From the NCBI RefSeq assembly GCF_004217175.1, contig NZ_SHKI01000002.1:549000-612999 (forward strand): a DNA stretch of 64,000 nt. The letters are read 5' to 3'. The stretch comes from Leucobacter luti (lineage in GTDB: Bacteria > Actinomycetota > Actinomycetes > Actinomycetales > Microbacteriaceae). The notes beneath the pieces were generated by a model that was not told the origin of the DNA, searched no databases, and worked only from the letters and a program-made list of their open reading frames with translations. Each line of letters begins with the position of its first letter. Position 1 is the first letter of the stretch. The position numbers were made by a program, and so were the translations under genes. This document shows positions 16,355 to 60,842 of the stretch, one piece after another.

Positions 16355-16394
16355 TTCGTTGTCCTTCAATCTGTGGTTGGGGCGGGGGAGAGGG

Positions 16395-17891: not shown

Positions 17892-17941
17892 GCTGTCGCC
17901 TCCGATGGCAGTGATGGTGGTGTGGGTGGTGTGTGTGCCGC

Positions 17942-18655: not shown

Positions 18656-18657
18656 GG

Positions 18658-20148: not shown

Positions 20149-20178
20149 GGCGACCTCGCTCATCTCGTTGTATTTCTT

Positions 20179-20190
20179 ATCGTATACGAT
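20179..20190. promoter_or_regulatory. GntR operator at the hpaG promoter
   Basis: The perfect palindrome ATCGTATACGAT lies 31 bases before the hpaG start. The same 12 bases recur at 22091-22102. Confidence 0.7.
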
Positions 20191-20323
20191 CTGGGTGGAT
20201 TTTGGAAGTGTGGTCCGCTGGGCTGAATTCGGCGTGCGGCGGACCACTGGCGCGCGCGGTGTGAGCCGCCGGTGCGGCCTGGGCGGTGAGCCGCCGGTGC
20301 GGACCGGGGGGGGGGGCGTGCGC

Positions 20324-20361
20324 CCGGGCTGCCGGTGCCCCTGGGAGCACCGGCAGCCCGG
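20324..20361 (-). terminator. Hairpin in the hpaI-hpaG gap, beside an 11-G run
   Basis: The 320-base gap 20149-20468 holds no gene. It contains a perfect 15-bp stem (20324-20338 with 20347-20361), about 110 bases after the hpaI stop on the minus strand and a probable terminator. It also holds a run of 11 G (20306-20316), two direct copies of GGTGAGCCGCCGGTGCGG around 20257-20303, and the hpaG promoter/operator. Confidence 0.6.
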
Positions 20362-20468
20362 TGATCCCGGCCGCCGGTGCTCCTGGTGGGCGGTGCGCCC
20401 GGTTGGCCGTGTGGTCCGGGCGCGAAGCGGTCTGGCTCCGGCCGGTGGCTTCGCCGCGCTGGGTCCGG

Positions 20469-21296
20469 CTAGTAGCTTGCCCGCGGGGCCGCGGCGCTTC
20501 CCGGCGCCGCGGTGAAGCGCTCCACGAGCGCCTCAGTCTGCCGGGCGAGGATCGCCACGTCGGCGCCGACCGCCACGAACGATGCCCCCGCGGCGATGTA
20601 GCGCTCGGCGTCGGCCGGGACAAAGGCGTTCACGCCAACCGGCTTGCCCGCCGCGACGCCCGCCGCGATCGCGCGCAGCACACCCGCGGCGACCTCTGGG
20701 TGGTTCTGCTGCCCGAGCAGCCCCATCGACGCGGCGAGATCGGACGGCCCCACGAAGATCGCGTCGACCCCGTCGGTCGCAACGATCCGCTCGACGTCGG
20801 CGACCGCCGCGGCCGACTCGATCTGCACGGTCAGGCTGATCGTCTCGTTCGCGCGACCGAGGTAGCCCTCGACCCGGTTCCAGCGCGCCGAGCGCGCGAG
20901 CGCCGAGCCGACGCCGCGCACCCCGCCGCCGGGCGTGCCGTCCGGGTAGCGCACCGCGCGGACAATCTCGGCGGCCTGCTCGGCGGAGTCGACCATTGGG
21001 ATGAGGAGGTTCTGCGCGCCAAGATCGAGGAACTGCTTGATCGTGACGGTGTCACCGAACGGCGGCCGCACGAGCGGGGCAACCGGATACGCGGACATTG
21101 CGTAGAGCTGGGCGAGCACCGACTCGAGCCCGTTGGGGGAGTGCTCCGCGTCGAGGAGCACCCAGTCGCAGCCGCTGCCGGCGACGATCTCGGCCGTGAT
21201 CGGGCTGCCGGCGCACGCCCAGAGTCCGATCAGTGGGCGGTCCGCGGCGGCGAGGCGATCCCGCAGCGTCGCGGGGAGCTCTACACGAACCGGCAC
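20469..21296 (-). CDS. hpaI: 4-hydroxy-2-oxoheptane-1,7-dioate aldolase
   Basis: HpaI is a metal-dependent class II aldolase that splits 4-hydroxy-2-oxoheptanedioate into pyruvate and succinate semialdehyde, the last step of the pathway. The 275 residues show the HpcH/HpaI fold: the His motif in VLLDAEHSPN, the metal Glu in QIESAAAV, and VGPSDLAASMG with the metal Asp. The GTG start at 21296 lies within the end of hpaH, so the genes overlap by 16 bases and are probably translationally coupled. Confidence 0.94.
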   Translation of the reverse strand: MPVRVELPATLRDRLAAADRPLIGLWACAGSPITAEIVAGSGCDWVLLDAEHSPNGLESVLAQLYAMSAYPVAPLVRPPFGDTVTIKQFLDLGAQNLLIPMVDSAEQAAEIVRAVRYPDGTPGGGVRGVGSALARSARWNRVEGYLGRANETISLTVQIESAAAVADVERIVATDGVDAIFVGPSDLAASMGLLGQQNHPEVAAGVLRAIAAGVAAGKPVGVNAFVPADAERYIAAGASFVAVGADVAILARQTEALVERFTAAPGSAAAPRASY

Positions 21297-22066
21297 GTCA
21301 CTGATCCGAGCTCGTTGTAGTCGGCGTGCACGGTGTCGCCGCGCTCCACCCACATGGGCTTGGTGAACGAGCCGGCGAGGATGATCTCTCCGGCCTCAAG
21401 CGACTGCCCGTGCTGCGCGAGCTTGTTCGCGAGCCAGGCCACGCCGAGCGCCGGGTGGCCGAGCACGGCGCCGGCCACGCCGGAATCCTCGATGCCCTCG
21501 TTGCGGTAGAGCAGGGCCTGTGCCCAGGTGAGGTCGACCTCGTCGACCTTGACGGGGCGGCCGCCGATCACCATGGCGCCCATTGCGGCGTTGTCGCTGA
21601 TCGTGTCGACGATCGTGCGCCCCTCGAGCTCGAGGTGCGAGTTCAGTACCTCGAGCGCGGGGATCACGTACGCGGTCGCGTCGAGTACGTCGAAGATGGT
21701 GACGCCGGGGCCCGAGAGCGGCTTGCTCAGCACGAAGGCGAGCTCGACCTCGATGCGGACGTTCGAGTAGCGGTCGAACTCGAGCACCGCGCCCGATTCG
21801 AAGACCATGTCGTCGTGAATTACCCCGTAGTCGGGCTCAGAGATCCCGGTTGCGAGCTGCATGACCTTCGAGGTGAGCCCGATCTTGTGGCCGACGAGGC
21901 GCGCGCCGGCGGCGATGCGGCGATCCGACCACACCTTCTGAATGGCGTACGAGTCTTCGATCACCATGCCCGGGTAGCGGCTCGTGAGCTTCGGCAGCAC
22001 GGCGCGGTCGCGGTCTGCCTGCACGAGCTCGTCGGCGATGGCTTCAATCTGTGTCTGGTCGAGCAC
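21281..22066 (-). CDS. hpaH: 2-oxo-hept-4-ene-1,7-dioate hydratase
   Basis: This 261-residue hydratase of the FAH-like MhpD/HpaH group adds water to 2-oxohept-4-enedioate to give the HpaI substrate. Family motifs are GHKIGLTSKVMQ, EVELAFVL with the metal-binding Glu pair, LGHPALGVAWLANKL and ILAGSFTKP. The GTG at 22066 has AAAGGAGG four bases upstream. It is the first gene of the hpaH-hpaI unit, which starts from a promoter overlapping a GntR-type palindrome. Confidence 0.93.
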   Translation of the reverse strand: MLDQTQIEAIADELVQADRDRAVLPKLTSRYPGMVIEDSYAIQKVWSDRRIAAGARLVGHKIGLTSKVMQLATGISEPDYGVIHDDMVFESGAVLEFDRYSNVRIEVELAFVLSKPLSGPGVTIFDVLDATAYVIPALEVLNSHLELEGRTIVDTISDNAAMGAMVIGGRPVKVDEVDLTWAQALLYRNEGIEDSGVAGAVLGHPALGVAWLANKLAQHGQSLEAGEIILAGSFTKPMWVERGDTVHADYNELGSVTCRFV

Positions 22067-48239: not shown

Positions 48240-49841
48240 ATGATGTCGGAACAGTCCAACACGAGCCCGCGCCCCGAGAGCGTCATCGTGGTGGGTGCCG
48301 GATCCGCGGGATCCGTCGTCGCTCGCCGCCTGGCCGATGCCGGGGTCGCCGTCACCATGATCGAGGCCGGGGGCGAAGACACGAACCCCGCTATCCACGA
48401 CCTCAGCCGCATGGGCGAGCTGTGGCACAGCGCCGACGACTGGGACTACTACACGACGCCGCAGCCCGGCGCCGCCGGCCGCCGCCTCCACCTGCCGCGC
48501 GGCAAGGTGCTGGGCGGGTCGCACGCGCTGAACGCGATGATCTGGGTGCGCTGCGTGCCGCAGGACTTTGACCACTGGGCTGCGCTGGGCAACGACGGGT
48601 GGGCGTGGGACGACGTGCTCCCCGTCTACCGCGAGATCGAGAGCTACTCGGGCGGCGCCTCGGAACTCCGCGGTGGCGACGGCCTGCTCGACGTGACCGA
48701 CGACTACGAGCTCTCGCCGATCCAGCAGTCGATCATTGACGCCGGAGTGCAGGAGGGGCTCGCCCACAACCCCGACTACAACGGAGAGTCGATCGAGGGG
48801 ATCTCGCAGCAGCAGATCACCGCGCGCGACGGGATCCGGCTCAGCACCTACGTGGCGTACCTGAAGCCGGTGCGCGATCGCGTGACGATCGAGGTGGGCT
48901 GCCGCGTCGATGAGCTGCTCTTCGCTGAGGCCGAGGCCGGCGGCGACACCGACGGTGCCGGAGCCGCCGCGCCCCGCGTGATCGGCGTCCGCGTCACCCA
49001 GAACGGTGAGACCCGGGACCTGTTCGCCGACGAGGTGATCCTCGCCGCTGGCGCGATTGACTCGCCCCGCGTGCTGCTGCGCTCCGGGATCGGGCCCGCC
49101 GACGAGCTCGCGGCCGTGGGAATCACGCCGCGCGTCGCCCTCCCGGGCGTGGGGAAGAACCTCCACGACCACCTGCTCTCGCCCGTGATTTTCGCTACCG
49201 AGAAGCCGATCGGTCCGCCGCAGTCGGGGGTCTCTGTGACGCAGACCCACCTGTTCTGGAAGAGCCGGCCGGAGCTCGACCGTCCGGACACGCAGCCGAT
49301 CAATTTCTCGGTGCCGATGTACGGCGAGAACCTCGAGCCGCGCGGAGACGACGGCCTCAGCTTCATGGCGGGACTCGTGACCCCGCAGGCGCGCGGCGAG
49401 ATCACGCTCTCCGGCCCTGGCGCTGAGGATCCGCTGCGGATCAACCTCGACGCGCTGGGCCACGAGGACGATGTCGCGTCGCTCGTCGCCTCGGTGCGTC
49501 AGTGCCGGTCGATCGGACGACAGCCCGCGCTTGCAGCCGACCCGGCCGACGGCGGCTGGGGCGCGACCGAGGTGTACCCGGGACCCGAGGTGGGCGACGG
49601 CGACGACCTCGTCGAGTACGTGCGCCAGACCGTCGCGACCTACCACCACCAGGTCGGCACCTGCAAGATGGGGGTGGACGACCTCGCCGTCGTCTCGCCG
49701 CGGCTCGCCGTGCACGGCGTCGACGGGCTGCGCGTGATCGACGCATCCGTGATGCCGCGCGTGACCACCGGCAACACGAACGCGCCGTCGGTGCTGATCG
49801 GGGAGCTCGGCTCCCGCTTCGTGCTCGCGGGGGAGCGCTAG
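48240..49841 (+). CDS. GMC family oxidoreductase (choline dehydrogenase-like)
   Basis: The 533-residue flavoprotein has the FAD-binding start VVGAGSAGSVVARRL and the GMC signature in LPRGKVLGGSHALNAMIWVR. Its C-terminal active site carries H470 in YHHQVGTCKMG and N512 in TTGNTNAPS. It oxidises an alcohol with FAD and passes electrons to oxygen or a carrier. ATG 48240 has GAGAGGAG; the frame upstream of it is not family-like. The last 36 bases of the gene are part of the 79-bp repeat also found at 60859. Confidence 0.92.
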   Translation: MMSEQSNTSPRPESVIVVGAGSAGSVVARRLADAGVAVTMIEAGGEDTNPAIHDLSRMGELWHSADDWDYYTTPQPGAAGRRLHLPRGKVLGGSHALNAMIWVRCVPQDFDHWAALGNDGWAWDDVLPVYREIESYSGGASELRGGDGLLDVTDDYELSPIQQSIIDAGVQEGLAHNPDYNGESIEGISQQQITARDGIRLSTYVAYLKPVRDRVTIEVGCRVDELLFAEAEAGGDTDGAGAAAPRVIGVRVTQNGETRDLFADEVILAAGAIDSPRVLLRSGIGPADELAAVGITPRVALPGVGKNLHDHLLSPVIFATEKPIGPPQSGVSVTQTHLFWKSRPELDRPDTQPINFSVPMYGENLEPRGDDGLSFMAGLVTPQARGEITLSGPGAEDPLRINLDALGHEDDVASLVASVRQCRSIGRQPALAADPADGGWGATEVYPGPEVGDGDDLVEYVRQTVATYHHQVGTCKMGVDDLAVVSPRLAVHGVDGLRVIDASVMPRVTTGNTNAPSVLIGELGSRFVLAGER

Positions 49842-49897: not shown

Positions 49898-51424
49898 TCA
49901 GCCCGTGTGAGTTGCCAGCGGAAAAGCGAATTCGAACACCGCGCCGTGCGGGTGGTGCTCGTATGCGGCGATCTCTCCGCCCTGCCGCAGGATCACTTGA
50001 TGGCTGAGTGCTAGGCCGATCCCGTGCCCGCCGCTCTTAGAGGAGAACGCGCCGTCAAACACCCGTCCGCCCGGCACATGATTCAGCCCTCGGCCAAGAT
50101 CGGTCACCCGAAACAGACCGCGTCCTTCAGCCGAATCTTTCGGGTCCGTGCGGTGTGCGGTTTCGACCCGCACCGCACGATACTCAATGGGCCAGTCACG
50201 CATCTCCTCGATAGCGTTGAAACACAGGTTGAGCATGACCTGCCCGGTGAGTACTCGCTCGCAGCGCACTGGGACCGCGACGCCAGAGAGCGCGAACGTG
50301 ACGTCGACCTGGTGCTGGGCAGCGCGCGTCTCGACCAGTGGGCGGACCTCGGCGACGAGGGCGTTCAGATCGATGAGCTGTGACGACGGTTCGAGGCTGG
50401 TGACATACCTGCGGAGACTCTGCAGGATCTCCCCGACCCGCGCGAGTTGACCCTGAGCTGCCTGTATTCCGGTGAGCAGCGTTGCCGTCTTGACATTCCC
50501 TGAACGGTGACGCTGCTCCACACCAGCAAGGAAGTTCGAGGCGGCGGAGATCGGCTGTGCGATTTCATGTTCAATCGTGGTGGCCATATCTCCCATCGCG
50601 TTGAATCGCGCGAGGTAGTTGAGATGCTGAAGCTCACGTTCACGGCGGATGTCCTGCAGTCGAGGCTCCGTGACATCGTGAAACAAGAGCAGATACCCGG
50701 TGACGTTGTCGTCAGATATGAATTGGCAGCTCCCCGACACCCAGCTTGCGGTTGCAGTCCGGTGTCGTGTCGCTACACGGAACGGCTGTGAACGGCCGAG
50801 CTCCCTACTGCGGGTAAGCGCCAGGCTGAGCGCGGAGCGGCCATCCGCATCAAGCGCGTCGAGCAGGTTCGAAGCGATGAGCCCTCCGCGCTCTGCGCCG
50901 AGGAGCAGCTCGGCGGAACGGCTCGCGTAGGTGACCGCATCATGCTCGTCGACGATGAGGATACCCTCATCGGTCTGACCGATAAAAGTGGCGAGCGCTG
51001 CCCTCGTGCGCGATAGGGTCTCACGGGTACGCTCTTCGTGTTCAATGTCGCGGAACTGGACCATCACCACCGTTGATTCGCTGAGAGTGACTCGCGTCGC
51101 AATCGCGTCAGTAAGCGTCTCCTTACCCGACTTCGAACGGTACTTCCATTTGATCCTCGCGCTGCCCTCGTCGGCCGCACGCTGTAGCCACTCGACGCCG
51201 CGGGCTCTGCGGTACATCTCACCGAGCCCGCTCATATCGTGCGCCTTCAGGGGGAGGAGTTCTTGCAGCGAGAACCCGAGGATCCTGAGTGCGGTGTGGT
51301 TCGCCCACAAGATGTTCTTCGACGCTGCGTCGTGAATGAGAATGCTCAGCGGGCTCGCGTCAAGCAACCGCTGAAGGTCGCGCAGCGAGAACGTGGGAAC
51401 CGAGGCCACATCATTGACAGCCAT
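49898..51424 (-). CDS. PAS-domain sensor histidine kinase (FixL-like)
   Basis: The 508-residue kinase has two PAS domains (about 12-135 and 143-260) and no transmembrane segment, so it senses a cytoplasmic signal. The phosphoacceptor is H286 in EHEIAQP, a FixL-type H box. The ATPase domain has the N box LNLCFNAIEEM, then DLGRGL and a G box GGHGIGLAL. It should phosphorylate the FixJ-like protein at 53954. This kinase class is more usual in proteobacteria than in Microbacteriaceae. It is divergent from the monooxygenase operon. ATG 51424 was chosen as the start of the conserved part. Confidence 0.88.
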   Translation of the reverse strand: MAVNDVASVPTFSLRDLQRLLDASPLSILIHDAASKNILWANHTALRILGFSLQELLPLKAHDMSGLGEMYRRARGVEWLQRAADEGSARIKWKYRSKSGKETLTDAIATRVTLSESTVVMVQFRDIEHEERTRETLSRTRAALATFIGQTDEGILIVDEHDAVTYASRSAELLLGAERGGLIASNLLDALDADGRSALSLALTRSRELGRSQPFRVATRHRTATASWVSGSCQFISDDNVTGYLLLFHDVTEPRLQDIRRERELQHLNYLARFNAMGDMATTIEHEIAQPISAASNFLAGVEQRHRSGNVKTATLLTGIQAAQGQLARVGEILQSLRRYVTSLEPSSQLIDLNALVAEVRPLVETRAAQHQVDVTFALSGVAVPVRCERVLTGQVMLNLCFNAIEEMRDWPIEYRAVRVETAHRTDPKDSAEGRGLFRVTDLGRGLNHVPGGRVFDGAFSSKSGGHGIGLALSHQVILRQGGEIAAYEHHPHGAVFEFAFPLATHTG

Positions 51425-51479
51425 GCGTCGATTGTCGCACGCAACTGCGCCGCGGTGAGCTATCGCGACGTGGCGCTGG

Positions 51480-51501
51480 CTACGTAGAAGCCTTAGGGGT
51501 G
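51480..51501. promoter_or_regulatory. Candidate FixJ-type site before the monooxygenase operon
   Basis: CTACGTAG (51480-51487) differs by one base from the FixJ-type GTAMGTAG motif. CTTAGGGGTG (51492-51501) resembles the CAGTAGGGGCG repeats found before the reductase operon. Confidence 0.35.
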
Positions 51502-51642
51502 TTGCAGGAATCCCGGGTTCGCCGCCAGGGGCTCCGCACTGTTTCCGCCGGGGCGCTCGACGTAGCGTCAGATTTGGGAGTTCAGCGACGCCCCTCGGCG
51601 CGGCTCCACAGCACTGCCCCACAACGCCCGGAAGGACTGAAC

Positions 51643-52803
51643 GTGAATACACGAGCGAATGATCAGGCTCCGAGATTGATCGACCCGAGCGAGGCCGCGT
51701 TCACAGCGATGCTCGCGCAAGTGGAAGCGCGGCGGAGAGAGTTCTCCGAACTCCGGCACATCCCGCGCGACATGGTTGACGAGTTTATCCGCGTTGGGCT
51801 GTTTCGCGCCGCGACCCCGGCGAAGTTCGGCGGTGACGCGCTGCCCCCCGCTGAGTTCCTCCGCAAGATCGAGCGGATCTCTGCGGTTGACGCCTCCGCG
51901 GGCTGGGTCGCCAGCTTCGGTTCGGCGCTCGTCTACTTCGCCTCGCTGCCGCTCACCACACAGGCCGAGCTGTACCGCGACGGCCCAGATCTCGTCTTCG
52001 CTGGCGGTCTGTTCCCGGTGCAGGAAGCGATGTCTGAGCCCGGCGGCTACCGGCTTAACGGTCACTGGCGGTTCGCGAGTGGCTGTGCTGCTGCCGACAT
52101 GCTCGGCGTCGGTATCTCAGGGGGGCAGGACACCAAAGGGAAGCCGCTCACTGCGCTACTCAAGCCCGAAGACGTTGAGATCGTAGAGAACTGGGACGTG
52201 CTCGGGCTCGAGGGCACCGGGAGCAACGAGCTCCGCGTCGTCGACAAGTTCGTCCCCGAGGAGTATACGTTTGTGCGGGGTGGCGACGTCAACGTCGACG
52301 AGCCGCTGTTTCGCTATCCTGCGATTGCCTACGCCGCGCAGGTGCTCGCGGTGGTCAACCTCGGCGTGGGGCGTGCCGCACTCGACTATCTCACTGAGGT
52401 CGGGTCTGGCGGCAGCGGCATCACCGGGGCGCCGCGGCTCGCAGATCGAGCGTACTTCCGCATCGAGCTTGCGAAAGCCGAGTCTCTGCTGCGCAGCGCA
52501 CGCGCATTTTTCTACGAGATCACCGAGACAGCCTGGGAGATCGTGTTGCGCGGTGACCCACTTGACGACCGGACCGCCGGATTGCTCCGGCTCGCGGGCA
52601 CCGCAGCAGTCAAAGCCGGTTGGCAGGCGACCCAGATCGCATTCACGCTTGCGGGGACGGGGGCCATCTACAACGGGCACCCGCTGCAGAAGATGCTGCG
52701 GGATGCCGCGGTGCCGCCGCAGCACGCATTTCTCGGGGATGGGATCTTCGACAGCGCGGGGTCAGTCCTCACCGGCGGGACTCCATTCCCGGGCTTCATT
52801 TAG
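51643..52803 (+). CDS. Acyl-CoA dehydrogenase-fold flavin monooxygenase, IacA-like
   Basis: The 386-residue protein has the fold of group D two-component flavin monooxygenases (HsaA, C2-hydroxylase, IacA), with ARRREFSELRHIPRDMVDEFI near the start and DASAGWVASFGSALVYFAS in the place of the family's core helix. It also has NGHWRFASGC and LAGTGAIYNGHPLQKMLRD near the end. Such enzymes use reduced FAD or FMN from a separate reductase (54904) to hydroxylate aromatic or indole rings. In iac clusters IacA oxidises indole-3-acetate. Start GTG 51643 has GGAAGGA. It heads a three-gene unit. Confidence 0.82.
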   Translation: MNTRANDQAPRLIDPSEAAFTAMLAQVEARRREFSELRHIPRDMVDEFIRVGLFRAATPAKFGGDALPPAEFLRKIERISAVDASAGWVASFGSALVYFASLPLTTQAELYRDGPDLVFAGGLFPVQEAMSEPGGYRLNGHWRFASGCAAADMLGVGISGGQDTKGKPLTALLKPEDVEIVENWDVLGLEGTGSNELRVVDKFVPEEYTFVRGGDVNVDEPLFRYPAIAYAAQVLAVVNLGVGRAALDYLTEVGSGGSGITGAPRLADRAYFRIELAKAESLLRSARAFFYEITETAWEIVLRGDPLDDRTAGLLRLAGTAAVKAGWQATQIAFTLAGTGAIYNGHPLQKMLRDAAVPPQHAFLGDGIFDSAGSVLTGGTPFPGFI

Positions 52804-52850
52804 GAACGGCCCGATGCCCCGCCATTATTACGACCAATTGGAGCTTCTTC

Positions 52851-53237
52851 ATGACTGCAGCTGCACCTCTCCGCGTGCTCTTCTGCATCGGAATCAACCA
52901 GAACTTTTTTGATCTGCCCGCTGGCGACGGCGGTGCCGTGTGGCAGGCGACCCTCGACCTGCTGGAGAAGACCTCGCGGCATCCTGGGATCACGTATATT
53001 GCCGACTTTGACGACGACGCCCAGCAAGTCGGACCATCGTACGGTTGGCCGTGGACCGCGTACATGCTCGCCGACGTTGATTCGCAGGCCACGGTGACTG
53101 AAATCACGAACCTGCTGCGCACGATTCGTGTGGGCGAGCACGCACTGTGGAGATACGCGAAGATCGAGGCACGGATCGGTCGTCCGCTCACGGTTCGCGA
53201 TGACGTGACGCTACCCACGGGGTCAGTACATGGCTGA
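52851..53237 (+). CDS. Small protein of unknown function, IacB-like by size and position
   Basis: The 128-residue protein starts MTAAAPLRVLFCIGINQNFF and has YGWPWTAYMLADVDSQATV and GEHALWRYAKIEARIGRP. It looks like a compact alpha/beta domain of the dimeric ferredoxin-like kind, with no signal peptide or metal motif. It lies between the IacA-like and SDR genes, where iac clusters carry iacB, a small gene of undefined role. ATG 52851 has TTGGAG; its end overlaps the SDR start by 8 bases. The link to IacB rests on context and length and needs an alignment. Confidence 0.6.
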   Translation: MTAAAPLRVLFCIGINQNFFDLPAGDGGAVWQATLDLLEKTSRHPGITYIADFDDDAQQVGPSYGWPWTAYMLADVDSQATVTEITNLLRTIRVGEHALWRYAKIEARIGRPLTVRDDVTLPTGSVHG

Positions 53238-53979
53238 GGGGGTGGCCCGGGTTGCCGTGGTGACGGGGGCCGCGAGCGGGCTCGGACGCAGAATTGCGCA
53301 CGCGTTCGCGGCGGCGGGCTACCGCGTCGTGGTCACCGACATTGACGGGCGCGGCGCCGCTGTGGCGGCCCGTGAACTTGCGGCCGTCACCGGCGCGCTC
53401 GGTCTCGAACACGACATTCGCGTGAAAGCATCGTGGGACGAGGTGCTGAGGCGCAGCAACCAGGAGTTTGGTGGCCCTATGGTGCTCGTGAACTGCGCGG
53501 GGCAGACGCTCTTCGGTGACGCGCTCGAGGTTTCGCCGCGCGATTTCTCCGCCGGGATCGAGCTAAATCTCACTGGGACGTTCATTGGGTGCCAGGTGTT
53601 CGGCCGCTTCTTTGCTGAACAGGCGACCGGGCGCATCATCAATATCGCCTCGCTCGCCGGCCAGAACGGCGGCACCGCATCAGGGATCCACTACGCCGCA
53701 GCAAAGGCGGGGGTGCTCGCACTCACGAAGGTCTTTGCGCGGGAATTGGCAGCACGCGGGGTGACCGTAAATGCGATCGCGCCCGGCCCGCTCAATGTCG
53801 CGGCGGTGCGGGACGCCCTGAGTACTGGGCAGCTGGCTGGCTTGGAACGGGGGATCCCCGTCGGAACGCTGCTATCCCCTGATTTTGTGGCGCAGACTGC
53901 GGTCTTGCTCGCCAGCGACGAAGCGATCTCAACGACCGGGGCGTGCTGGGACATTAACGGAGGCCTGCTCCTGCGCTAG
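53230..53979 (+). CDS. Short-chain dehydrogenase, IacE-like role
   Basis: The 249-residue SDR has TGAASGLGRR, NCAG in the place of NNAG, Ser in NIASLAG, and YAAAKAG with Tyr and Lys. Asp after the second strand (TDIDG) suggests NAD. In iac systems IacE acts with IacA in forming dioxindole-3-acetate. It overlaps the preceding gene, and its 3' end overlaps the convergent response-regulator gene by 26 bases. Confidence 0.85.
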   Translation: MAEGVARVAVVTGAASGLGRRIAHAFAAAGYRVVVTDIDGRGAAVAARELAAVTGALGLEHDIRVKASWDEVLRRSNQEFGGPMVLVNCAGQTLFGDALEVSPRDFSAGIELNLTGTFIGCQVFGRFFAEQATGRIINIASLAGQNGGTASGIHYAAAKAGVLALTKVFARELAARGVTVNAIAPGPLNVAAVRDALSTGQLAGLERGIPVGTLLSPDFVAQTAVLLASDEAISTTGACWDINGGLLLR

Positions 53980-54679
53980 CGGTCCGGCGGGTTTCGCGAG
54001 CAACTCTCGTCTCCGTGAGCCCGGCTTCAGTGAGTACATGTTCTGGTTCGAGACCCGCCTGCAGCAGATCCCGCACCAGGTGGGTGATGCTCGCGGCCCC
54101 AGTCTTCTCCCGGATACGGGCACGGTGCACATCGACGGTCCTCGTGCTGATTCCGAGCGCGAACGCGATGACCTTGCTCTGCTCGCCCTCGAGCACGAAG
54201 CTGAGTACCTCGCGCTCGCGCGGCGTGAGCGCGTCGATGAGTGCGGTGAGTCTCGCACGTTCATGCGCGGTCTTGTGGAGTGCGCGGGCACGCGCGAGTC
54301 CGTCCTGGACGAGGTCTACGAGCTGCTGCGGTTCGTAAGGTTTTTCGAGGAACGTCAGAGCGCCTGCCTGGAGTGCCTGCACAGACATTCTGATGCTCCC
54401 GTGCGCGGACACGAATATGGTTGGAATCTTAATGCCGCGGTCGCGCAGAATCTCCTGGAGTCGGAGCCCACTCAGTCCCGGCATGCGAACGTCAGTGACG
54501 AGGCAGGCCACGACGGCCGGATCGAACTCCGCGAGGAAATCCGCCGCCGAGTTGAACGAGCGCGATGGGATTCCGACCGACTCGAGGAGCCACTCGAGTG
54601 AGGCACGCAGCTCGTCGTCGTCGTCGACAATGAACACGCGCTCGCGCGGGGCGGCTTCTTGCGGGTGGGTGAGGGACAT
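53954..54679 (-). CDS. FixJ-like response regulator (receiver plus LuxR-type HTH)
   Basis: The 241-residue regulator has a receiver domain with D63 (VTDVRMPG) as phosphorylation site, S91 (VSAHG) and K113 (LEKPY). A LuxR-type DNA-binding domain follows at 151-195 (LTPREREVLSFVLEG). It is the natural partner of the FixL-like kinase at 49898, with the catabolic genes between them. It should activate the two plus-strand operons when its kinase senses a signal. Confidence 0.92.
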   Translation of the reverse strand: MSLTHPQEAAPRERVFIVDDDDELRASLEWLLESVGIPSRSFNSAADFLAEFDPAVVACLVTDVRMPGLSGLRLQEILRDRGIKIPTIFVSAHGSIRMSVQALQAGALTFLEKPYEPQQLVDLVQDGLARARALHKTAHERARLTALIDALTPREREVLSFVLEGEQSKVIAFALGISTRTVDVHRARIREKTGAASITHLVRDLLQAGLEPEHVLTEAGLTETRVARETRRTASAGAGLR

Positions 54680-54750
54680 TGATCTCCCGTGTCGACGCTG
54701 ACGGATACTCCTGTCAGTCAGAGTACGACACGAGGGGAGTCCGGCCTAGC

Positions 54751-54810
54751 AGTAGGGGCGCGAGCTAAAGGAACCCGTAGGTGTGTATGCGCGACGAACA
54801 GTAGGGGCGA
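54751..54810 (+). promoter_or_regulatory. Direct repeats before the reductase-transporter operon
   Basis: CAGTAGGGGCG occurs at 54751-54761 and 54800-54810. It resembles CTTAGGGGTG before the monooxygenase operon, so it may be a response-regulator site. Confidence 0.4.
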
Positions 54811-54903
54811 AGTCATCGCGGATGGGGCGGGTGTCAGCGCGTTCATAGGCTGTGAAACACGGGGATTTCCCGGACGAAGCTATCAACACACAGGGGTGTT
54901 CAC

Positions 54904-55527
54904 ATGACTTCAGCGCAGCCAGATCAGTTGTCGTTCCGGGAAGCGATGGCGAGCCTCGCGTCGGCGGTAAGTATTGTCACCACTGCCGGCCCAGCTGGTA
55001 CCGGAGGGATCACCGTGAGCGCGGTGAGTTCGGTCACCGATACACCGCCGACCATCCTGGTGTGTGTAAATCGGTTAAGTGGAATGCACGCGGCATTCCG
55101 GGGAAACGGGCGGCTCGCGATCAACCTCCTCTCCGGGGAACAATCGCAAATGGCACTGCATTTCGCCGGCGCGACGCAGGTGCCGATGGCGGAGCGGCTG
55201 TCCTGGCCCGACTGGGAGACCAGCGACGGCCTTCCCGTGCTTCGTGGGGTGGTGGTCCGGGCGACCGGGCGGATCGTGCGCGACATCGAGGTGGGAACGC
55301 ACTCGGTGTTTTTCGTTGAGCTTGACCGCGTTGAAACCGATACCGAGCAGCTCGGGCTCGCCTACTTCAGGCGGACGTTTGTACCCGTAGCCGCAGCCTC
55401 CCGGCAGGGAAGTACTTGGCAGTTCTACGACGAGTGGTCAGATCCGGGGCTCGCCTCTTCGCTCTCGCAACCGATACACGACGAGGCATACCGCACCGGT
55501 GGCGCCTCAACTGCGATCACCACCTGA
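54904..55527 (+). CDS. Flavin reductase of a two-component monooxygenase, IacG-like
   Basis: The 207-residue protein is a flavin reductase-like (HpaC/HsaB type) domain, with SLASAVSIVTTAGPAG near the start, VSAVSSVTDTPPTILVCVN in the flavin site and FAINLL-type RLAINLLSGEQ. It should reduce FMN or FAD with NAD(P)H and hand it to the IacA-like oxygenase. A C-terminal tail of about 40 residues is extra to the fold. It heads a six-gene operon. Confidence 0.88.
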   Translation: MTSAQPDQLSFREAMASLASAVSIVTTAGPAGTGGITVSAVSSVTDTPPTILVCVNRLSGMHAAFRGNGRLAINLLSGEQSQMALHFAGATQVPMAERLSWPDWETSDGLPVLRGVVVRATGRIVRDIEVGTHSVFFVELDRVETDTEQLGLAYFRRTFVPVAAASRQGSTWQFYDEWSDPGLASSLSQPIHDEAYRTGGASTAITT

Positions 55528-55560
55528 ATCCAGACCGCCGGCTTTGAAAGGAGTCTGATC

Positions 55561-55872
55561 GTGTCGTATCCAAAAGACATAGGCCCGGCAGCGACGCCGG
55601 ACCTTGAAGAGTTCGTTCGACGAAACCATCGAGTGCGCTTTGGCCTTGCCGCGATTGTGCTCGGTTTCTTCCTCCCGCTTCCGATCCTCGGCGGGTTCAC
55701 GCCCGCGCTCGACGCCCACATTGGGTTGGGCATCACGGTGGCGTGGGTCTATGCGTTCGCTCAGTTCGTTCTCGCCCTGGTCGTCGCACAGTATTACATG
55801 CGTCGAGCTCGGCGCTCTGACGCCGCTGGCGAGCGACTCATCGAGCGGGAGGGGGAGACATGGACGCCGTAA
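55561..55872 (+). CDS. DUF485 membrane protein (YjcH-like)
   Basis: The 103-residue protein has two hydrophobic helices (about 27-48 and 58-78) and the DUF485 features RNHRVRFGLA and FAQFVLALVVAQYYMRRA. DUF485 proteins regularly accompany ActP-type sodium/solute symporters and are thought to assist them. The GTG start follows GAAAGGAG. It overlaps the symporter gene by 13 bases. Confidence 0.88.
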   Translation: MSYPKDIGPAATPDLEEFVRRNHRVRFGLAAIVLGFFLPLPILGGFTPALDAHIGLGITVAWVYAFAQFVLALVVAQYYMRRARRSDAAGERLIEREGETWTP

Positions 55873-57482
55873 CAATCGCGATCTTCGTGCTGCTGGTTGC
55901 GGCGACGCTCCTGATTACCTACCTTGCCGCAAAAAGGAATAGGTCCGCCGCCGATCACCTGGTCGCTGGTGGTCGGATCAGCGGCAGACAGAACGGTCTC
56001 GCGATCGCGGGCGACTTCATATCGGCGGCCTCGTTTCTCGGAGTGACCGGCGCGATCGCGCTCTCTGGGTTCAACGGCTTCTACCTCGCCGTCTTCGTGC
56101 CCGTCGCGTTTGTGCTGGCTCTGCTGCTCGTCGCTGAGCCGCTGCGAAACCTCGGCAAATTCACGCTCGCTGACGTGCTCGCAACGCGCTACCCGGCGCG
56201 CAACGTTCGCGCAATGATGGCGACTACCTCTGTGGTGATCAGTCTCGTGTACTTGGTAGCGCAACTCGTCGGAGCCGCGTTACTGATCTCGCTGATGTTT
56301 GGTCTCCCGTATTGGGCGGCCGTATTGGCCATCGGAGGTCTCACAACGGTCTATACGCTCCTCGGGGGCATGGTTGCGACCACCTGGATTCAGATCGTGA
56401 AGACCGGGATCCTCCTCATCTGCGCCGCCGTGCTGTTCGTGTTCGTTATCGGCGAGTTCGACTTCAACCCGTTGCGCCCGTTTGCCGATGTCATGGTCAC
56501 CCTCGGCGACCAGTTCGTTGCGCCGCACCGAGGCAGTGGGCTGCAGAACTTTGACCAGCTCTCGATGACCATCGGCCTCGTGTTCGGAGTCCTTGGGCTT
56601 CCGCACGTGATGATCCGATTCCTCACGGTACCGAATGCGCGTCAGGCCCGCTCCTCCGCATACACCTCAATCTGGGTGTTCTTCGTGTTCTACGCGATGG
56701 TTCCGGTGCTGGGGTACGCCGCGACGCTGCTGGTCGGGGCCGACGCGATCACCGCCAGAAACCCCGGGGGTAACCTCGCAGTGATGCAGCTCGCGGAGGC
56801 AGTGGGGGGAAAGACCCTGCTCGCGATCATCGCCGCCGTTGCGTTCGTGACGATTCTTGCGGCGCTCTCCGGACTCGTCATCGCGACATCAGGCGCAATC
56901 GCTCACGACCTCTACGGTCAGGTGCTCCGACGCGGGAACGTGACGGCTGCAGCACAGCTCAGGGCAGCTCGAATCGCCACTCTCGCGACGTCCATCGCGG
57001 GTGTCGCGGTCGCATTCGCAGCTGAGCGCCAGAACGTCGCCTTTCTCGCAAGCCTGGGAATGTCGATCGCCGCGGCAGCAAACCTGCCAGCGCTCATGCT
57101 TACGATGTACTGGAAGCGGATGACCAGCGCGGCCGTCGTCGCTGGCATGTCCGTGGGCCTCGGCGTGTCAATCGCGGTGATCCTCCTGAGCCCGATTGTG
57201 TGGGGTGAGACGGCGCTGCTCGGGTTTTCGAACCCGGCACTCGTGGCCGCCCCCGTTGCCCTGGGAACCTCCCTGCTCGTCGCGCTCAGCTCACGCCACA
57301 ATGCCGGCGATGCGGAGCGTGCGAGCGCTGCGTACTCCGACATGCGCGCGGCCGCATTCGGGCCACAGCGAGCCAGTTTGGTTGGCGGTGACGGTTCGTC
57401 CGCGGCACAGCAGCCCGCAGCCGTGGCTCGCTCGGAGTCGGTGACCAACGCGACGCCGGTGACGCCGCGGGAGGAGCTGTGA
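55860..57482 (+). CDS. Sodium/solute symporter, ActP/phenylacetate-permease type
   Basis: This 540-residue SSS-family protein has about thirteen helices, with AGDFISAASFLGVTGAIALSG (the substrate/sodium region) and MVATTWIQIVKTGILL. ActP-type symporters with DUF485 partners import acetate, pyruvate or phenylacetate, so an organic acid is the likely cargo here. That fits a CoA ligase encoded directly after it. Its stop overlaps the ligase ATG by one base. Confidence 0.9.
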   Translation: MDAVTIAIFVLLVAATLLITYLAAKRNRSAADHLVAGGRISGRQNGLAIAGDFISAASFLGVTGAIALSGFNGFYLAVFVPVAFVLALLLVAEPLRNLGKFTLADVLATRYPARNVRAMMATTSVVISLVYLVAQLVGAALLISLMFGLPYWAAVLAIGGLTTVYTLLGGMVATTWIQIVKTGILLICAAVLFVFVIGEFDFNPLRPFADVMVTLGDQFVAPHRGSGLQNFDQLSMTIGLVFGVLGLPHVMIRFLTVPNARQARSSAYTSIWVFFVFYAMVPVLGYAATLLVGADAITARNPGGNLAVMQLAEAVGGKTLLAIIAAVAFVTILAALSGLVIATSGAIAHDLYGQVLRRGNVTAAAQLRAARIATLATSIAGVAVAFAAERQNVAFLASLGMSIAAAANLPALMLTMYWKRMTSAAVVAGMSVGLGVSIAVILLSPIVWGETALLGFSNPALVAAPVALGTSLLVALSSRHNAGDAERASAAYSDMRAAAFGPQRASLVGGDGSSAAQQPAAVARSESVTNATPVTPREEL

Positions 57483-59107
57483 TGACCGACATCGCGGCCC
57501 CCGTCCCGGCCGAGCGCACGGTGCCGTGGATGCTCCAGCGCGCCGCTGAGACGCACGGGTCGGCACCGCTCTTCAGCTTCGGCGACGCGAGTGCGAGCTA
57601 CCAGCGGGCATGCGAGATCGCCGGGCACGCCGCGTGGCGCCTGACACATCAGTATGGCGTCCGCCGCGGTGACACGATTGTCCTAATCCTCCACAATCGC
57701 GTCGAGTTTCTCGAGATCGTGCTTGGCGCGGCCTGGGCGGGGGCGGTGAGTGTTCCGCTCAACACTGCGGCGATGGGCGAGCAGCTCCGCCATATGCTCG
57801 AGAGCGCCGCGGCGAACGTCATCGTGGTCGAGCAAGAGCTTGCCGTGCGGGTGCGCGATGCGCTCGCTGCAGTTTCCGCGACGCCGAGGCTGGTTGTCCT
57901 CACCGATCCCGCGGCGCGGGTGACTCGCGGTAGCGAGAACAGCGTCGACGCTTGGGAGCCTATCTCGCACGGCCCAGTGACCGAGCCCCGGCTCCCGCCG
58001 GCCTCGGTGCGGCCGGGCGACCCGTTCGTGGTGCTGTACACCTCGGGGACGACCGGAGTGTCAAAGGGTGTGGTGTGTCCGCACGCGCAGTACTACTGGT
58101 GGGCGTACCACAACGCGTCCCTGCTCGAACTCGGGCCAACAGACGTGCTCTTCACGACGCTCCCGCTCTTCCATACAAACGCTCTGAGCGCACTGTTCCA
58201 GGCGGCGCGGGTGGGTGCGAGCGTCGTGTACGAGCGACGATTCTCAGCCTCGGGGTTTGTCGACGCGATAGAACGCGCCGGGGCCACCGTGACCTACCTG
58301 CTCGGCGCCATGGTACCGATACTGCTCACAGTGCCGCCGCGTCCGGAAGACCGCGAGTCACCGCTACGGCGGGTGCTCGCCCCCGGCGTCCCAGAAGTGC
58401 AACTGCGCGAGTTTGAACAGCGCTTCGGGGCTCGGATCGTCGACGGCTTCGCATCAACCGAATCGAACTTCGTGATTGGCTCTCGCGTGAGCGAGCGTCG
58501 CCCAGGCCGGATGGGCACCGTGCAGCGGGGGTTTGAAGCGCGCGTGGTGGATCCGAACGATGCGGAAGTGCCCGACGGTACTCCCGGTGAGCTTGTGCTT
58601 CGTTCACGCGAGCCGTTCGCGTTCGCGCTCGGTTACCGTGGACGCCACGACGCGACGGTTGAGTCGTGGCGAAACCTCTGGCTACACACCGGCGATCGGG
58701 TGGTGCGTGACGCGGATGGGTTCTTCAGCTTCGTGGATCGGCTGAAGGACGTGATCCGGCGCCGGGGTGAGAACATTTCATCGCACGAGGTCGAGGCCGC
58801 CGTGCTGACCCACCAGGAAGTTGAGGCGGTCGCGGCGTTCCCAGTGCCGTCCGAGCTTGCGGAGGACGAGGTGATGATCGCGGTCGTGCGTGGTGAGGGC
58901 GACACACTCACCCCCGCCGCTCTGCTTGACCACGTTCGTACGCGACTTGCATACTTCGCGGTGCCGAGGTTCGTTGACTTCGTTGACGAGCTCCCACTCA
59001 CGGAGAACGGAAAGGTACGCAAGTTCGTCCTCCGCGAACAAGGGGTGAGTCCAGATACGTGGGATCGTGAGGCCGCAGGGTACGAGCTTCGGAGGGACGG
59101 CTCGTGA
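57482..59107 (+). CDS. Acyl-CoA synthetase (AMP-forming CoA ligase)
   Basis: The 541-residue ligase activates a carboxylic acid to its CoA thioester through an acyl-adenylate. The phosphate loop YTSGTTGVSKG starts at residue 186. A5-type FASTESN, LHTGD, FVDRLKDVIRRRGENIS and the C-terminal catalytic Lys in NGKVRK are all in place. It resembles the CaiC/carnitine-CoA ligase branch. In the proposed pathway it would activate the hydroxylated acid before the aldolase-like step. It overlaps the next gene by 4 bases. Confidence 0.9.
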   Translation: MTDIAAPVPAERTVPWMLQRAAETHGSAPLFSFGDASASYQRACEIAGHAAWRLTHQYGVRRGDTIVLILHNRVEFLEIVLGAAWAGAVSVPLNTAAMGEQLRHMLESAAANVIVVEQELAVRVRDALAAVSATPRLVVLTDPAARVTRGSENSVDAWEPISHGPVTEPRLPPASVRPGDPFVVLYTSGTTGVSKGVVCPHAQYYWWAYHNASLLELGPTDVLFTTLPLFHTNALSALFQAARVGASVVYERRFSASGFVDAIERAGATVTYLLGAMVPILLTVPPRPEDRESPLRRVLAPGVPEVQLREFEQRFGARIVDGFASTESNFVIGSRVSERRPGRMGTVQRGFEARVVDPNDAEVPDGTPGELVLRSREPFAFALGYRGRHDATVESWRNLWLHTGDRVVRDADGFFSFVDRLKDVIRRRGENISSHEVEAAVLTHQEVEAVAAFPVPSELAEDEVMIAVVRGEGDTLTPAALLDHVRTRLAYFAVPRFVDFVDELPLTENGKVRKFVLREQGVSPDTWDREAAGYELRRDGS

Positions 59108-60255
59108 GGGAGCGGGCGGTGGTGGTCGCGCCGGTGACCGTGCCCTATGTGCGCTATTCGCAGCGAGGGGCCCCGTACTTTATCGGTGCTGCGATTCATT
59201 CGCTGTGCGAGGCGGCCGGTATCGGAGTCCCGGATATTGATGGGCTTGCGCTCGCCTCGCTGACCATGGGCCCCGACTCAGCCGCGGGCATTGTGGATCA
59301 CCTCGGTATTGAACTCGACTGGCTCACTGAGGTGACCGTGGGCGGCGCCGCTGGGATCGTGGCGCTGCGTCGCGCGGTGACTGCAGTAGACGCTGGAGAC
59401 GCGGAGATCGTGGCGTGCGTCGGCGCCGACACCAATCGCCCGGGGCAGCTGAACCGTCTCACCTCGGAGTTCTCAGGCTTTACGCGAGATGCAGTCTCGC
59501 CCTACGGCGCCGGCGGGCCGAACGGTGTGTTCGCGCTCATCACTCAGGTGTTCATGCGCGACACCGGGGTCACCGCCGAGGACCTGGGGAAACTCTGCGT
59601 GGCCTCACGGCTGAACGCCGCTGCAAATCCGCTCGCGCTGCTCCGTACCCCGTACACGCTCGATGAATACCTGACGTCACGGCCGATCGCAGATCCGCTG
59701 CGCCTGCTGGACTGCGTCATGCCCTGCGCGGGAGCGGAAGCATTCCTCGTGATGAGCGAGACGCGGGCTGAGAGTCTCGGGCTGCGACCCGTGCGGGTGC
59801 TCGCTTCGTTTGAAAGCTACAACGACTTTCGGAACGACCCCGTGGCGACTCGGGGTGGGTGGGCGCGGCACGCGGCGGGGCTGTGGGCGCGGGCGGGGGT
59901 GCAGCCGGACGACGTCGATCTGGTGCAGAGCTACGACGACTACCCGGTCATGGTCGCCATGCAGCTTCGAGATCTCGGCTTTGCGCACGAGGGAGGCATC
60001 GCGCAGTTTATCCGCGCGCAGAGTTTCACCGTCGACGGCAGCTTTCCTCACAACACTTCCGGGGGGCAGCTCTCGAGCGGGCAAGCCGGATTTGCCGGTG
60101 GTTTCCTCGGGATTACTGAAACGCTGCGGCAGCTCACCGGTGCCCCGCTGGGCAACGCGGTGAACGGAGCGCGTGTCGGGGCAGTATCCGGCTTCGGGAT
60201 GGTGAACTTCGACCGTGGGATCGTGTCGGGCGCGGTCGTCCTGGGGACACCGTGA
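59104..60255 (+). CDS. Thiolase-fold protein without thiolase residues, Ltp2-like aldolase candidate
   Basis: The 383-residue protein has the thiolase fold in the SCP2/lipid-transfer branch. The position of the active Cys reads VGGAAG (79-84), the place of the His (HDxF) reads YDDY with Y277, and the C-terminal GHPxGATG is absent after NTSGG (317-321). These changes match Ltp2, a retro-aldolase for 17-hydroxy steroid acyl-CoA that acts with a DUF35 partner. The partner here is the next gene, overlapping by 4 bases. A true thiolase activity is therefore unlikely. The expected reaction is cleavage of a tertiary beta-hydroxyacyl-CoA to a ketone and acetyl-CoA. Confidence 0.78.
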   Translation: MRERAVVVAPVTVPYVRYSQRGAPYFIGAAIHSLCEAAGIGVPDIDGLALASLTMGPDSAAGIVDHLGIELDWLTEVTVGGAAGIVALRRAVTAVDAGDAEIVACVGADTNRPGQLNRLTSEFSGFTRDAVSPYGAGGPNGVFALITQVFMRDTGVTAEDLGKLCVASRLNAAANPLALLRTPYTLDEYLTSRPIADPLRLLDCVMPCAGAEAFLVMSETRAESLGLRPVRVLASFESYNDFRNDPVATRGGWARHAAGLWARAGVQPDDVDLVQSYDDYPVMVAMQLRDLGFAHEGGIAQFIRAQSFTVDGSFPHNTSGGQLSSGQAGFAGGFLGITETLRQLTGAPLGNAVNGARVGAVSGFGMVNFDRGIVSGAVVLGTP

Positions 60256-60842
60256 AACTGGCGCGGGGATCCGCTTGGGTCGATGCCACCCTGTACGCGA
60301 TCACGGGTGACTTCGCACTGCAAGTCGATGAGACGGGTCGGGCGTGGTATCCGCCGCGCGAACTGGTACCGGGCGCTCTTGCGGGCAAGCTTGCCTGGGT
60401 CACCGTCGCCCCGCGGGGCACGATCCTAGCAAGCACACACCTGCACGTGCCAGGGGAGCCGTTCTCTGGCGAGCATGGACCGTGGCCGATCGCGCTCGTC
60501 GCGCACGATGCCGGCGCCCGTGTCATCGCTCATCTGCTCGATCCCCTGGAAGCTGGTGAACTGGTAGAGCTCTCGCTCCGACTCGACCGCACGGGGCGTC
60601 CGGCGATGTGTGCGAGCGAGCTCGGCAAACCGGGGCTCGACAGGGGGAGCCGCCAACCTCCGCGAGTTGGCGTCGCGGAGGAGTTCCTGTGGGGCGTTTC
60701 TGGTGCCGACGTGCGCATCCTCGGGGCTGGTCCGCACGCGAAGCGGATTGGGGACGCGGCGCTCGCCGCCGGCGCCCGTCTCCTCCCCACTGGCAGCGAT
60801 GGATTCGAGCTCGCGTGGCCCCTGCGAGTCGACTTCGATTAG
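60252..60842 (+). CDS. DUF35-like OB-fold protein lacking zinc ligands, aldolase partner
   Basis: The 196-residue protein follows the DUF35 plan (rubredoxin-like ribbon, then OB fold): ALQVDETGRAWYPPRELVPG, then LAWVTVAPRGTILASTHLH. The four Cys of the ribbon are replaced (V25, T28, V39, A42). A further segment of about 60 residues follows the OB fold. ChsH2-type DUF35 partners are needed for Ltp2 activity and its CoA binding, so the same role is inferred here. It is the last gene of the island. Confidence 0.7.
   Translation: MKLARGSAWVDATLYAITGDFALQVDETGRAWYPPRELVPGALAGKLAWVTVAPRGTILASTHLHVPGEPFSGEHGPWPIALVAHDAGARVIAHLLDPLEAGELVELSLRLDRTGRPAMCASELGKPGLDRGSRQPPRVGVAEEFLWGVSGADVRILGAGPHAKRIGDAALAAGARLLPTGSDGFELAWPLRVDFD

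Follow-up and report, generated by a model that had tools for sequence, protein, structure and literature searches.

The window analysed in this study is a stretch of 64,000 nucleotides (nt) from Leucobacter luti, C1:549000-612999 of a ten-contig assembly that totals 3.6 Mb. At window positions 49898-60842 it carries a set of eleven genes proposed to degrade the auxin indole-3-acetate (IAA) by way of dioxindole-3-acetate (DOAA), in which genes like those of the iac pathway are followed by genes like those of the iad pathway. Gene calls and family profile searches confirmed the positions and the expected families of nine open reading frames listed in an earlier note on this DNA; the histidine kinase, the FixJ-type regulator and the low GC content at third codon positions (GC3) described below were absent from that note. 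The genes are as follows, with percentages given as identities.

49898-51424, minus strand: PAS-domain histidine kinase (Pfam PAS and HATPase_c), divergent from iacA, GC3 0.72
51643-52803, plus strand: IacA-type flavin-dependent monooxygenase of the acyl-CoA-dehydrogenase-type family, 59% to IacA of Streptomyces NBC_00564
52851-53237, plus strand: IacB-type small protein, 60% to Streptomyces IacB
53230-53979, plus strand: IacE-type short-chain dehydrogenase (SDR) with motifs TGAASGLG and YAAAK, 52% to Streptomyces IacE
53954-54679, minus strand: FixJ-type response regulator (NCBIfam FixJ 186.7 bits, under the cut-off of 255)
54904-55527, plus strand: IacG-type flavin reductase (Pfam Flavin_Reduct), 53% to Streptomyces IacG
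55561-55872, plus strand: DUF485 membrane protein (Pfam DUF485, 1.8e-14)
55860-57482, plus strand: ActP-type sodium/organic acid symporter (NCBIfam ActP 437 and MctC 431 bits, both under the cut-offs)
57479-59107, plus strand: AMP-forming acyl-CoA ligase (PRK06155 714 bits, cut-off 722), proposed DOAA-CoA ligase
59104-60255, plus strand: IadG-type thiolase-fold protein, 54% to IadG of Variovorax paradoxus, proposed retro-aldolase
60252-60842, plus strand: DUF35/OB protein (OB_ChsH2_C 37.6 bits), proposed partner of the aldolase

None of the eleven reading frames is interrupted, and the spacing of the genes is operon-like: IacA and IacB are separated by 47 nt, IacB and the SDR overlap by 8 nt, and a gap of 33 nt between the flavin reductase and DUF485 genes is followed by overlaps of 13, 4, 4 and 4 nt through the symporter, ligase, thiolase-fold and DUF35 genes. 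GC3 of the genes in 49898-60842 is 0.70-0.80; to the left it is 0.86-0.94, with one gene at 0.82, and in three genes to the right 0.81-0.84. This low third-position GC suggests an acquired island, with its left edge between a GMC oxidoreductase gene (GC3 0.92) and the histidine kinase gene.

The front half of the island was compared with iac clusters taken from plasmid records. IacA, IacB, IacE and IacG showed identities of 59, 60, 52 and 53% to the cluster of Streptomyces NBC_00564, 62, 49, 49 and 52% to that of Cupriavidus P-10 (both being complete iac clusters), and 42, 47, 45 and 43% to that of a Klebsiella plasmid; IacA was 41% identical to its Acinetobacter baumannii counterpart. The monooxygenase scored far under the curated cut-offs of the models for HsaA (139.7 bits, cut-off 450), 4-hydroxyphenylacetate hydroxylase C2 (95.2, cut-off 650) and DszC (23.2, cut-off 850), and among the solved structures listed, which included no IacA, it matched Rv3094c at 178 bits, HsaA at 94, C2 at 76 and XiaF at 67. 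By sequence, then, the enzyme is an IacA and, by score, not one of these other types, as the earlier note had supposed. The small protein matched no NCBIfam or Pfam model and was 40-62% identical to 16 IacB-type proteins, mostly inside iac clusters (alignment of 17), and the island SDR was the best of 16 matches in the genome to Klebsiella IacE (196 bits versus 107 for the next). Judged by this similarity, orthology of the four proteins establishes an iac-type front. The kinase/regulator pair is also common to the island and the iac clusters of Cupriavidus P-10 (identities 40%/55%), Burkholderia multivorans (39%/54%) and Rhodococcus YL-1 (34%/52%). IacA and IacE of Caballeronia glathei were reported to convert IAA to DOAA in Escherichia coli, with IacB not required (PMC7225977).

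The island shares IacA, IacB, IacE and IacG with the iac locus of the Pseudomonas putida 1290 type and differs from it in the Rieske enzymes. The Rieske alpha profile PF00848, positive in 4 of 14 known genomes used as a control, found no match in the L. luti genome (99.8% complete by the tool figure), and IacC and IadD queries gave no genome match at E ≤ 1e-20. Since PF00848 was without a match, the genome lacks IadDE as well as the known catechol route, and a catechol route by way of a remote Rieske enzyme was rejected on the same ground. The absence of iacC, iacD and iacF had been noted earlier from the window; for iacC and iacD it extends to the genome, and for iacF, for which no genome-wide search was made, it holds for the island. 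Without iacCD and without iadDE, the locus by definition belongs to neither the iac nor the iad type, and its gene content suggests that it works as an iac front feeding an iad back.

For the back half, named genomes were scanned with the island ligase. The best 80 of 274 matched loci, at 47-55% identity, included Variovorax, Alcaligenes, Bradyrhizobium and Neorhizobium, and a tblastn search of all 80 found a relative of the island thiolase-fold protein at 50-58% in 37. Within the stretch examined, 31 of these 37 loci carried an IadH-type gene and 32 an isatin-hydrolase-type gene. Gene calls and similarities gave the order IorA-IorB-IadC-D-E-F-G-H-I-J in V. paradoxus ISL-79 (L112), in agreement with the gene numbers given for strain CL14 (PMC10374108), and the order ligase-IadG-DUF35 was the same in the island. 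The island ligase is 33% identical to V. paradoxus IadF, a member of the same superfamily, and 51% to a second ligase near the Variovorax iad genes. Of the 37 loci, L033 and L039 alone had an IadF-type ligase of at least 250 bits within the stretch; because of this, the ligase type of the island probably performs the CoA-activation step in the other 35 as well, with the caveat that the loci were chosen by this very ligase.

Compared with V. paradoxus iad (IadC-K2), the island has in common the IadG-type protein (54%), a DUF35 partner, which resembles the N-terminus of IadH, and an adjoining CoA ligase; isatin hydrolase and IorAB-like genes are also present in the L. luti genome. It differs in having iac-type oxidation where iad has the Rieske enzyme IadDE, a ligase of another subfamily, a DUF35 protein without the SDR-like domain and zinc ligands, an isatin hydrolase encoded outside the island, and two-component regulators in place of a MarR gene. 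Apart from the ligase subfamily, the two back halves are, on these similarities, the same module. The lower route, put forward as possibly new in the earlier note, is therefore not new, being that of the iad pathway as already published (PMC12633357). Downstream of iadJ, V. paradoxus also carries a second Rieske-type pair with the second ligase (L112 1632-3409 / L072 10040-11587), the role of which is left unexplained by the nine-gene iad region.

The motif YDDY (Tyr277-Asp278-Asp279-Tyr280 in the island protein) was present in all 48 thiolase-fold relatives, the island protein included. An alignment of 28 of these proteins showed Gly80, Gly81, Tyr277, Asp278, Asp279, Tyr280, Asn317, Gly320, Gly321, Ser324, Gly326 and Gln327 to be invariant and Gln322 to be kept in 27; the statement on the GGQ motif rests on this alignment, a simple pattern having missed 6 of the 48 rows. 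In profile alignment to Sal (9myr), Tyr277 fell on Tyr302, Asp279 on Cys304 and GGQLSxGQ on GGQLSFGQ. In that to thiolase 7yvy, Gly81 stood opposite a Cys, which we take to be the thiolase nucleophile. The signature of SCP2/degradative thiolases, a nucleophilic Cys with an HDCF-type motif, is replaced by Gly81 and YDDY. Catalytic residues reported for the related aldolases are, in Ltp2, Tyr294 of the motif YDHF and Tyr344 and, in Sal, Tyr302 and Cys304 of the motif YDCY together with Gln347 and Gln352; Sal likewise carries Gly where SCP-2 thiolases carry the nucleophilic Cys (PMC12329534). The second catalytic residue (Tyr344 of Ltp2, Cys304 of Sal) is not kept in the island protein, Asp279 taking the position of Cys304.

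Ranked by sequence profile, the top solved relatives were Sal 9myr (245 bits), putative thiolase 4u4e (212) and Ltp2 6ok1 (211), with other thiolase entries at 164 bits or less. Foldseek also placed Sal first; VIA-align gave a tie (Z 48.5 for Sal versus 47.8 for a thiolase), and fold likeness was for this reason rejected as proof of aldolase function. The predicted model of the DUF35 protein (mean pLDDT, the predicted local distance difference test, 70.6) was nearest to the DUF35 proteins of Ltp2-ChsH2 and Sal-Shy, then to thiolase DUF35 subunits. The earlier suggestion of an aldolase candidate with a DUF35 partner is supported in that the top solved relatives of both proteins are aldolases with DUF35 partners. 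Common to the island pair and to Ltp2-ChsH2 and Sal-Shy are the thiolase fold with DUF35, the Tyr of the YDxF/Y motif and the lack of a nucleophilic Cys, and GGQLSxGQ is shared with Sal. The island pair differs in having YDDY instead of YDHF or YDCY, in identities of 26-30% in the structure comparisons, in a DUF35 protein without zinc ligands and in its presumably non-steroid substrate; the known pairs cleave beta-hydroxyacyl-CoA.

The island DUF35 protein ends in a short tail after the OB domain, without the SDR-like domain of IadH. Among 31 full-length relatives of IadH, the first two Gly of TGxxxGxG were kept in none and Tyr and Lys together in 2, which makes a dehydrogenase role of IadH doubtful. 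In addition, DOAA-CoA could not become a beta-ketoacyl-CoA on chemical grounds, since its beta-hydroxyl is tertiary; retro-aldol cleavage would be a direct route from DOAA-CoA to isatin and acetyl-CoA. The island protein lies inside the IadG-type group, with support of 100/100 against the group of 41% identity. A second clade of YDDY proteins, 38-42% identical to that of the island, was observed near the same ligase type in L012, L015, L018, L025, L028, L043, L048, L059, L068 and L071, and includes the actinomycete Sciscionella.

A search of the genome for isatin hydrolase, proposed earlier, found one candidate, C3:305143, which is unlinked to the island, 46-49% identical to hydrolases of iad loci, and scored 217-269 bits with isatin hydrolases of solved structure, compared with 116 for the next cyclase. 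Other PF04199 matches were rejected for this role (C8:402, at only 26-28%, and C2:594499, with no match to iad hydrolases), as was kynurenine formamidase as the identity of C3:305143 (arylformamidase model 33 bits, cut-off 223). Adjoining the hydrolase gene is one for a 775-aa flavin adenine dinucleotide/old yellow enzyme (FAD/OYE) protein of the salicylyl-CoA 5-hydroxylase family (1140 bits, cut-off 1078); anthraniloyl-CoA hydroxylase presumably belongs to this PRK08255 / salicylyl-CoA 5-hydroxylase family. At a distance of about 12 kb, the contig carries an IorA-like gene (62%) and an IorB-like gene (41%), the identities being to the pair of a Bradyrhizobium iad locus. As isatinate is an arylglyoxylate, an IorAB-type enzyme could give anthraniloyl-CoA directly. 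The same region of C3 (about 300-308 kb; L084 4100-12162, L093 2730-6568) also encodes a styrene-monooxygenase-type protein, a flavin reductase and an SDR, and may thus contain a separate route for indole sharing the lower steps; by its gene content, the region is a probable indole/isatin island of the host. In Pseudooceanicola atlanticus (L128 8195-12103), an IacA-like gene is divergent from a salicylyl/anthraniloyl-CoA hydroxylase-type gene, an arrangement that hints at an IacA paralogue in anthraniloyl-CoA metabolism.

From these data, we consider it probable that the genes form an acquired island for aerobic IAA catabolism in which an iac-type front is joined to an iad-type back. The symporter, with the DUF485 protein as its likely partner, would import the acid substrate, here IAA. 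IacA, with reduced flavin from IacG, and then IacE would turn IAA into DOAA, from which the ligase would make DOAA-CoA, as suggested by the adjacent IadG/IadH-type pair and by the effect of iadF deletion in Variovorax. The thiolase-fold/DUF35 pair is predicted to break the C3-CH2 bond by retro-aldol cleavage, with Tyr277 as the base and Asp279 replacing Cys304 of Sal, giving isatin and acetyl-CoA. The isatin hydrolase encoded off the island could then form isatinate, and the IorAB-like enzyme anthraniloyl-CoA, which the OYE/FAD hydroxylase may attack. The kinase/regulator pair probably induces the island on an indole signal. In Variovorax, deletion of iadF, iadG, iadH or iadI was reported to accumulate C10H9NO4, the formula of DOAA (PMC12633357), and isatin and dioxindole were detected in cultures of the same strain (PMC9613470).

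Several observations weigh against this reading, and four alternatives were considered. The first concerns the substrate. IacA enzymes take several indoles: together with IacE, that of C. glathei also converts indole-3-propionate, indole-3-butyrate and 3-(2-hydroxyethyl)indole. Purified IacE, in the same paper, failed to convert Ox-IAA (PMC7225977). The same chemistry might act on another 3-substituted indole or an aryl acetate instead of IAA, and Caballeronia sp. Sq4a, in which an IacA-like gene lies near a ligase and a thiolase-fold protein of 41% identity without IacB, suggests that related sets may have other substrates. We regard this as unlikely for the island, which retains IacB, IacE and an IadG type of 50-58%; moreover, a beta-hydroxy thioester would, on chemical grounds, arise only from an acetate side chain, the hydroxyl of the propionate homologue being at the gamma position.

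The second concerns the cleavage. C8H7NO2, dioxindole by formula, accumulates in Variovorax without iadI (PMC12633357), whereas retro-aldol cleavage predicts isatin first, so that either a reduction in the cell must be assumed or the cleavage differs. This accumulation before IadI suits the annotation used in the same source, which makes IadG a genuine ketothiolase and IadH, a DUF35-SDR protein, an alcohol dehydrogenase, and whole-fold similarity cannot separate thiolases from aldolases. Yet the thiolase Cys position is Gly in 28 of 28 proteins, the tertiary alcohol of DOAA allows no beta-ketoacyl-CoA, the IadH relatives have largely lost the nucleotide and catalytic motifs, and the island, lacking the SDR domain, would need another dehydrogenase. 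This explanation was considered very improbable.

The third concerns the ligase, which by sequence is not an IadF orthologue (33%). CoA activation could instead come first, the ligase forming indole-3-acetyl-CoA and oxygenation taking place on the thioester; an anaerobic route from IAA to 2-aminobenzoyl-CoA is known (PMC9613470). However, homologues of IacA and IacE work on the free acid (PMC7225977), and the C10H9NO4 left by the iadF deletion is DOAA as the free acid (PMC12633357). We give little credence to this order of events.

Finally, all four zinc cysteines are gone from the island DUF35 protein and are kept by the other 34 of the 35 rows, and the thiolase-fold protein stands on a long branch (1.84), with uncertain placement inside the IadG-type group; the lost ligands and the long branch suggest that the island copy may have drifted. 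The isatin hydrolase and later genes, being on another contig beside a styrene-monooxygenase-type gene, could serve indole instead. The lost zinc ligands, the truncated tail of the DUF35 protein, the long branch and the fact that, of 396 sampled genomes of the phylum, its own alone held a close thiolase-fold relative (E ≤ 1e-80) could mean that the island has lost its function, or is losing it, since it was transferred, a view compatible with any of the chemistries above. Against this stand the eleven open frames, the intact motifs of IacE and the thiolase-fold protein, the kept gene overlaps and the presence of later-step genes in the genome, and we see little chance of it.

The joining of an iac-type front to an iad-type back was also observed elsewhere. 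In Neorhizobium SOG26 (L021), Mesorhizobium L-8-3 (L044) and Castellaniella caeni (L082/L113), IacA-B-E-G genes lie beside ligase, IadG-, IadH- and isatin-hydrolase-type genes, and neither IacC nor IadD was matched within the stretch. Genome-wide, any Rieske matches of these three were partial and did not exceed 104 bits, compared with 476 for the true Streptomyces-Klebsiella IacC pair, and the C. caeni genome had no IacC or IadD match at E ≤ 1e-20. Castellaniella caeni also links the IorAB-like genes to all of these; its locus differs from the island in an ABC transporter, a MarR-like gene (by the look of the sequence) and an IacA from another iac lineage. In Rhizobium setariae, the two halves are on different contigs, and Rieske matches reach 129 bits.

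On a tree of 18 chosen IacA rows without an outgroup (L055, L077, L096, L098, L102b, L103 and L118 left out and two rows added), a single clade of the island and the three linked hybrids was rejected (approximately unbiased test, p-AU 1.5e-90). Front/back state changes numbered at least 3 without the Sphingomonas row and 4 with it, the direction of change not being given by the counts. On the first IacA tree, which had three outgroup rows, that of Rhodococcus opacus (branch 5.55) was placed among the IacA rows, and a constraint keeping 23 IacA-like rows together was not rejected (p-AU 0.323). On the IadG-type tree, one clade of the island and five IacA-type loci was rejected (p-AU 6e-27), and Castellaniella stood next to V. 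paradoxus with support of 100/94. On the IacA tree, the two halves were joined in three lineages, that of the island included.

Three other candidates were not counted among these lineages. Sphingomonas flavalba was rejected as a clean hybrid: the 17 kb examined contain IacABE and lack IacCDF, and a full-length IadD-like gene (42%, 405 bits) lies about 15 kb away. Pseudooceanicola HF7 and Paracoccus fontiphilus (L055, L077) have only an IacA-like gene, branching with Caballeronia and Paraburkholderia paralogues, and a flavin reductase; P. fontiphilus also has a Rieske gene at 32-34%. Across the 37 IadG-type loci, IadD was present in 21, an IacA-type gene in 5 and both in none (Fisher p 0.010); counting only the 3 strict hybrids with IacB and IacE, the exclusion was not significant (p 0.072). 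For loci without a Rieske gene, an IacA elsewhere in the genome was found in 3 of 11 (one being S. flavalba) versus 1 of 11, a weak difference with 22 of 32 such loci covered and several of the genomes metagenome-assembled. The thiolase-fold protein had a match at E ≤ 1e-50 in 2 of 199 family genomes (its own and one at 36%), and the single match among the phylum genomes mentioned above comes from a search that scored a small number of candidates in each genome, four in most of the rows listed. IacA at E ≤ 1e-100 was found in 3 of 396 genomes of the order, the other two having IacC and IacD alongside.

Two plasmids carry related gene sets. That of Caballeronia sp. Sq4a (L103 1-11666) has, besides the IacA-like gene and the island-type ligase, a flavin reductase, the 41% thiolase-fold protein, a zinc-ribbon protein and 3-hydroxyanthranilate 3,4-dioxygenase, possibly a related route for another aromatic acid. 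Plasmid pYLL1 of Rhodococcus sp. YL-1 (L098) has iacA, B, E and F with the kinase/regulator pair and no iacC or iacD match in the stretch, and appears to be an incomplete or split iac cluster.

Within the window, the GMC oxidoreductase gene adjoining the island (48240-49841) encodes a protein 49% identical to one beside the Rhodococcus YL-1 iac genes, where an aldehyde dehydrogenase gene is next to it. By its GC3 the L. luti gene looks native, and it may feed alcohols, for example tryptophol, into the pathway. A meta-cleavage cluster for homoprotocatechuate (3,4-dihydroxyphenylacetate) lies at 15212-22066; HpaD and HpaE exceed the NCBIfam cut-offs, HpaH reaches 348.5 of 351.5 bits and an HpaI-type aldolase 297 of 369, and an FAH-family protein is nearby.

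A survey of auxin loci distinguished two major types among those in which homologues of iacC and iacD adjoin; as its loci were keyed on these genes, Rieske-free hybrids fall outside its definition, and its wider count used type-specific marker genes, by which Rieske-free genomes may have been counted (PMC9613470). The Variovorax study, with mutants for each gene, assigned removal of the DOAA side chain to a ketothiolase and an alcohol dehydrogenase from annotation, and this preprint already proposes CoA activation of DOAA followed by side-chain removal (PMC12633357). New here are the combination of the two halves and the interpretation as an aldolase, the lower route itself being already published; neither the hybrid locus nor retro-aldol cleavage in IAA breakdown was found described in the open-licence literature, subscription papers not being covered.

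The island would represent a third type of locus built from two known modules, and the retro-aldol idea would extend to iad itself. With somewhat better than even confidence, we propose that the YDDY proteins form a retro-aldolase family of their own, with DUF35 partners, which takes the acetyl side chain off DOAA-CoA in all isatin-type auxin degraders, including Variovorax, where IadG and IadH would have been miscalled ketothiolase and alcohol dehydrogenase. In the same proposal, DOAA is a free junction, and front ends of the Rieske and flavin kinds have been exchanged there on at least three occasions. The retro-aldol reading assigns a single reaction to two named proteins, with two residues singled out, and, if true, would explain an IadG without the thiolase Cys and an IadH with a broken nucleotide motif. 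The L. luti island thus points to a predicted candidate enzyme for removing the side chain of auxin.

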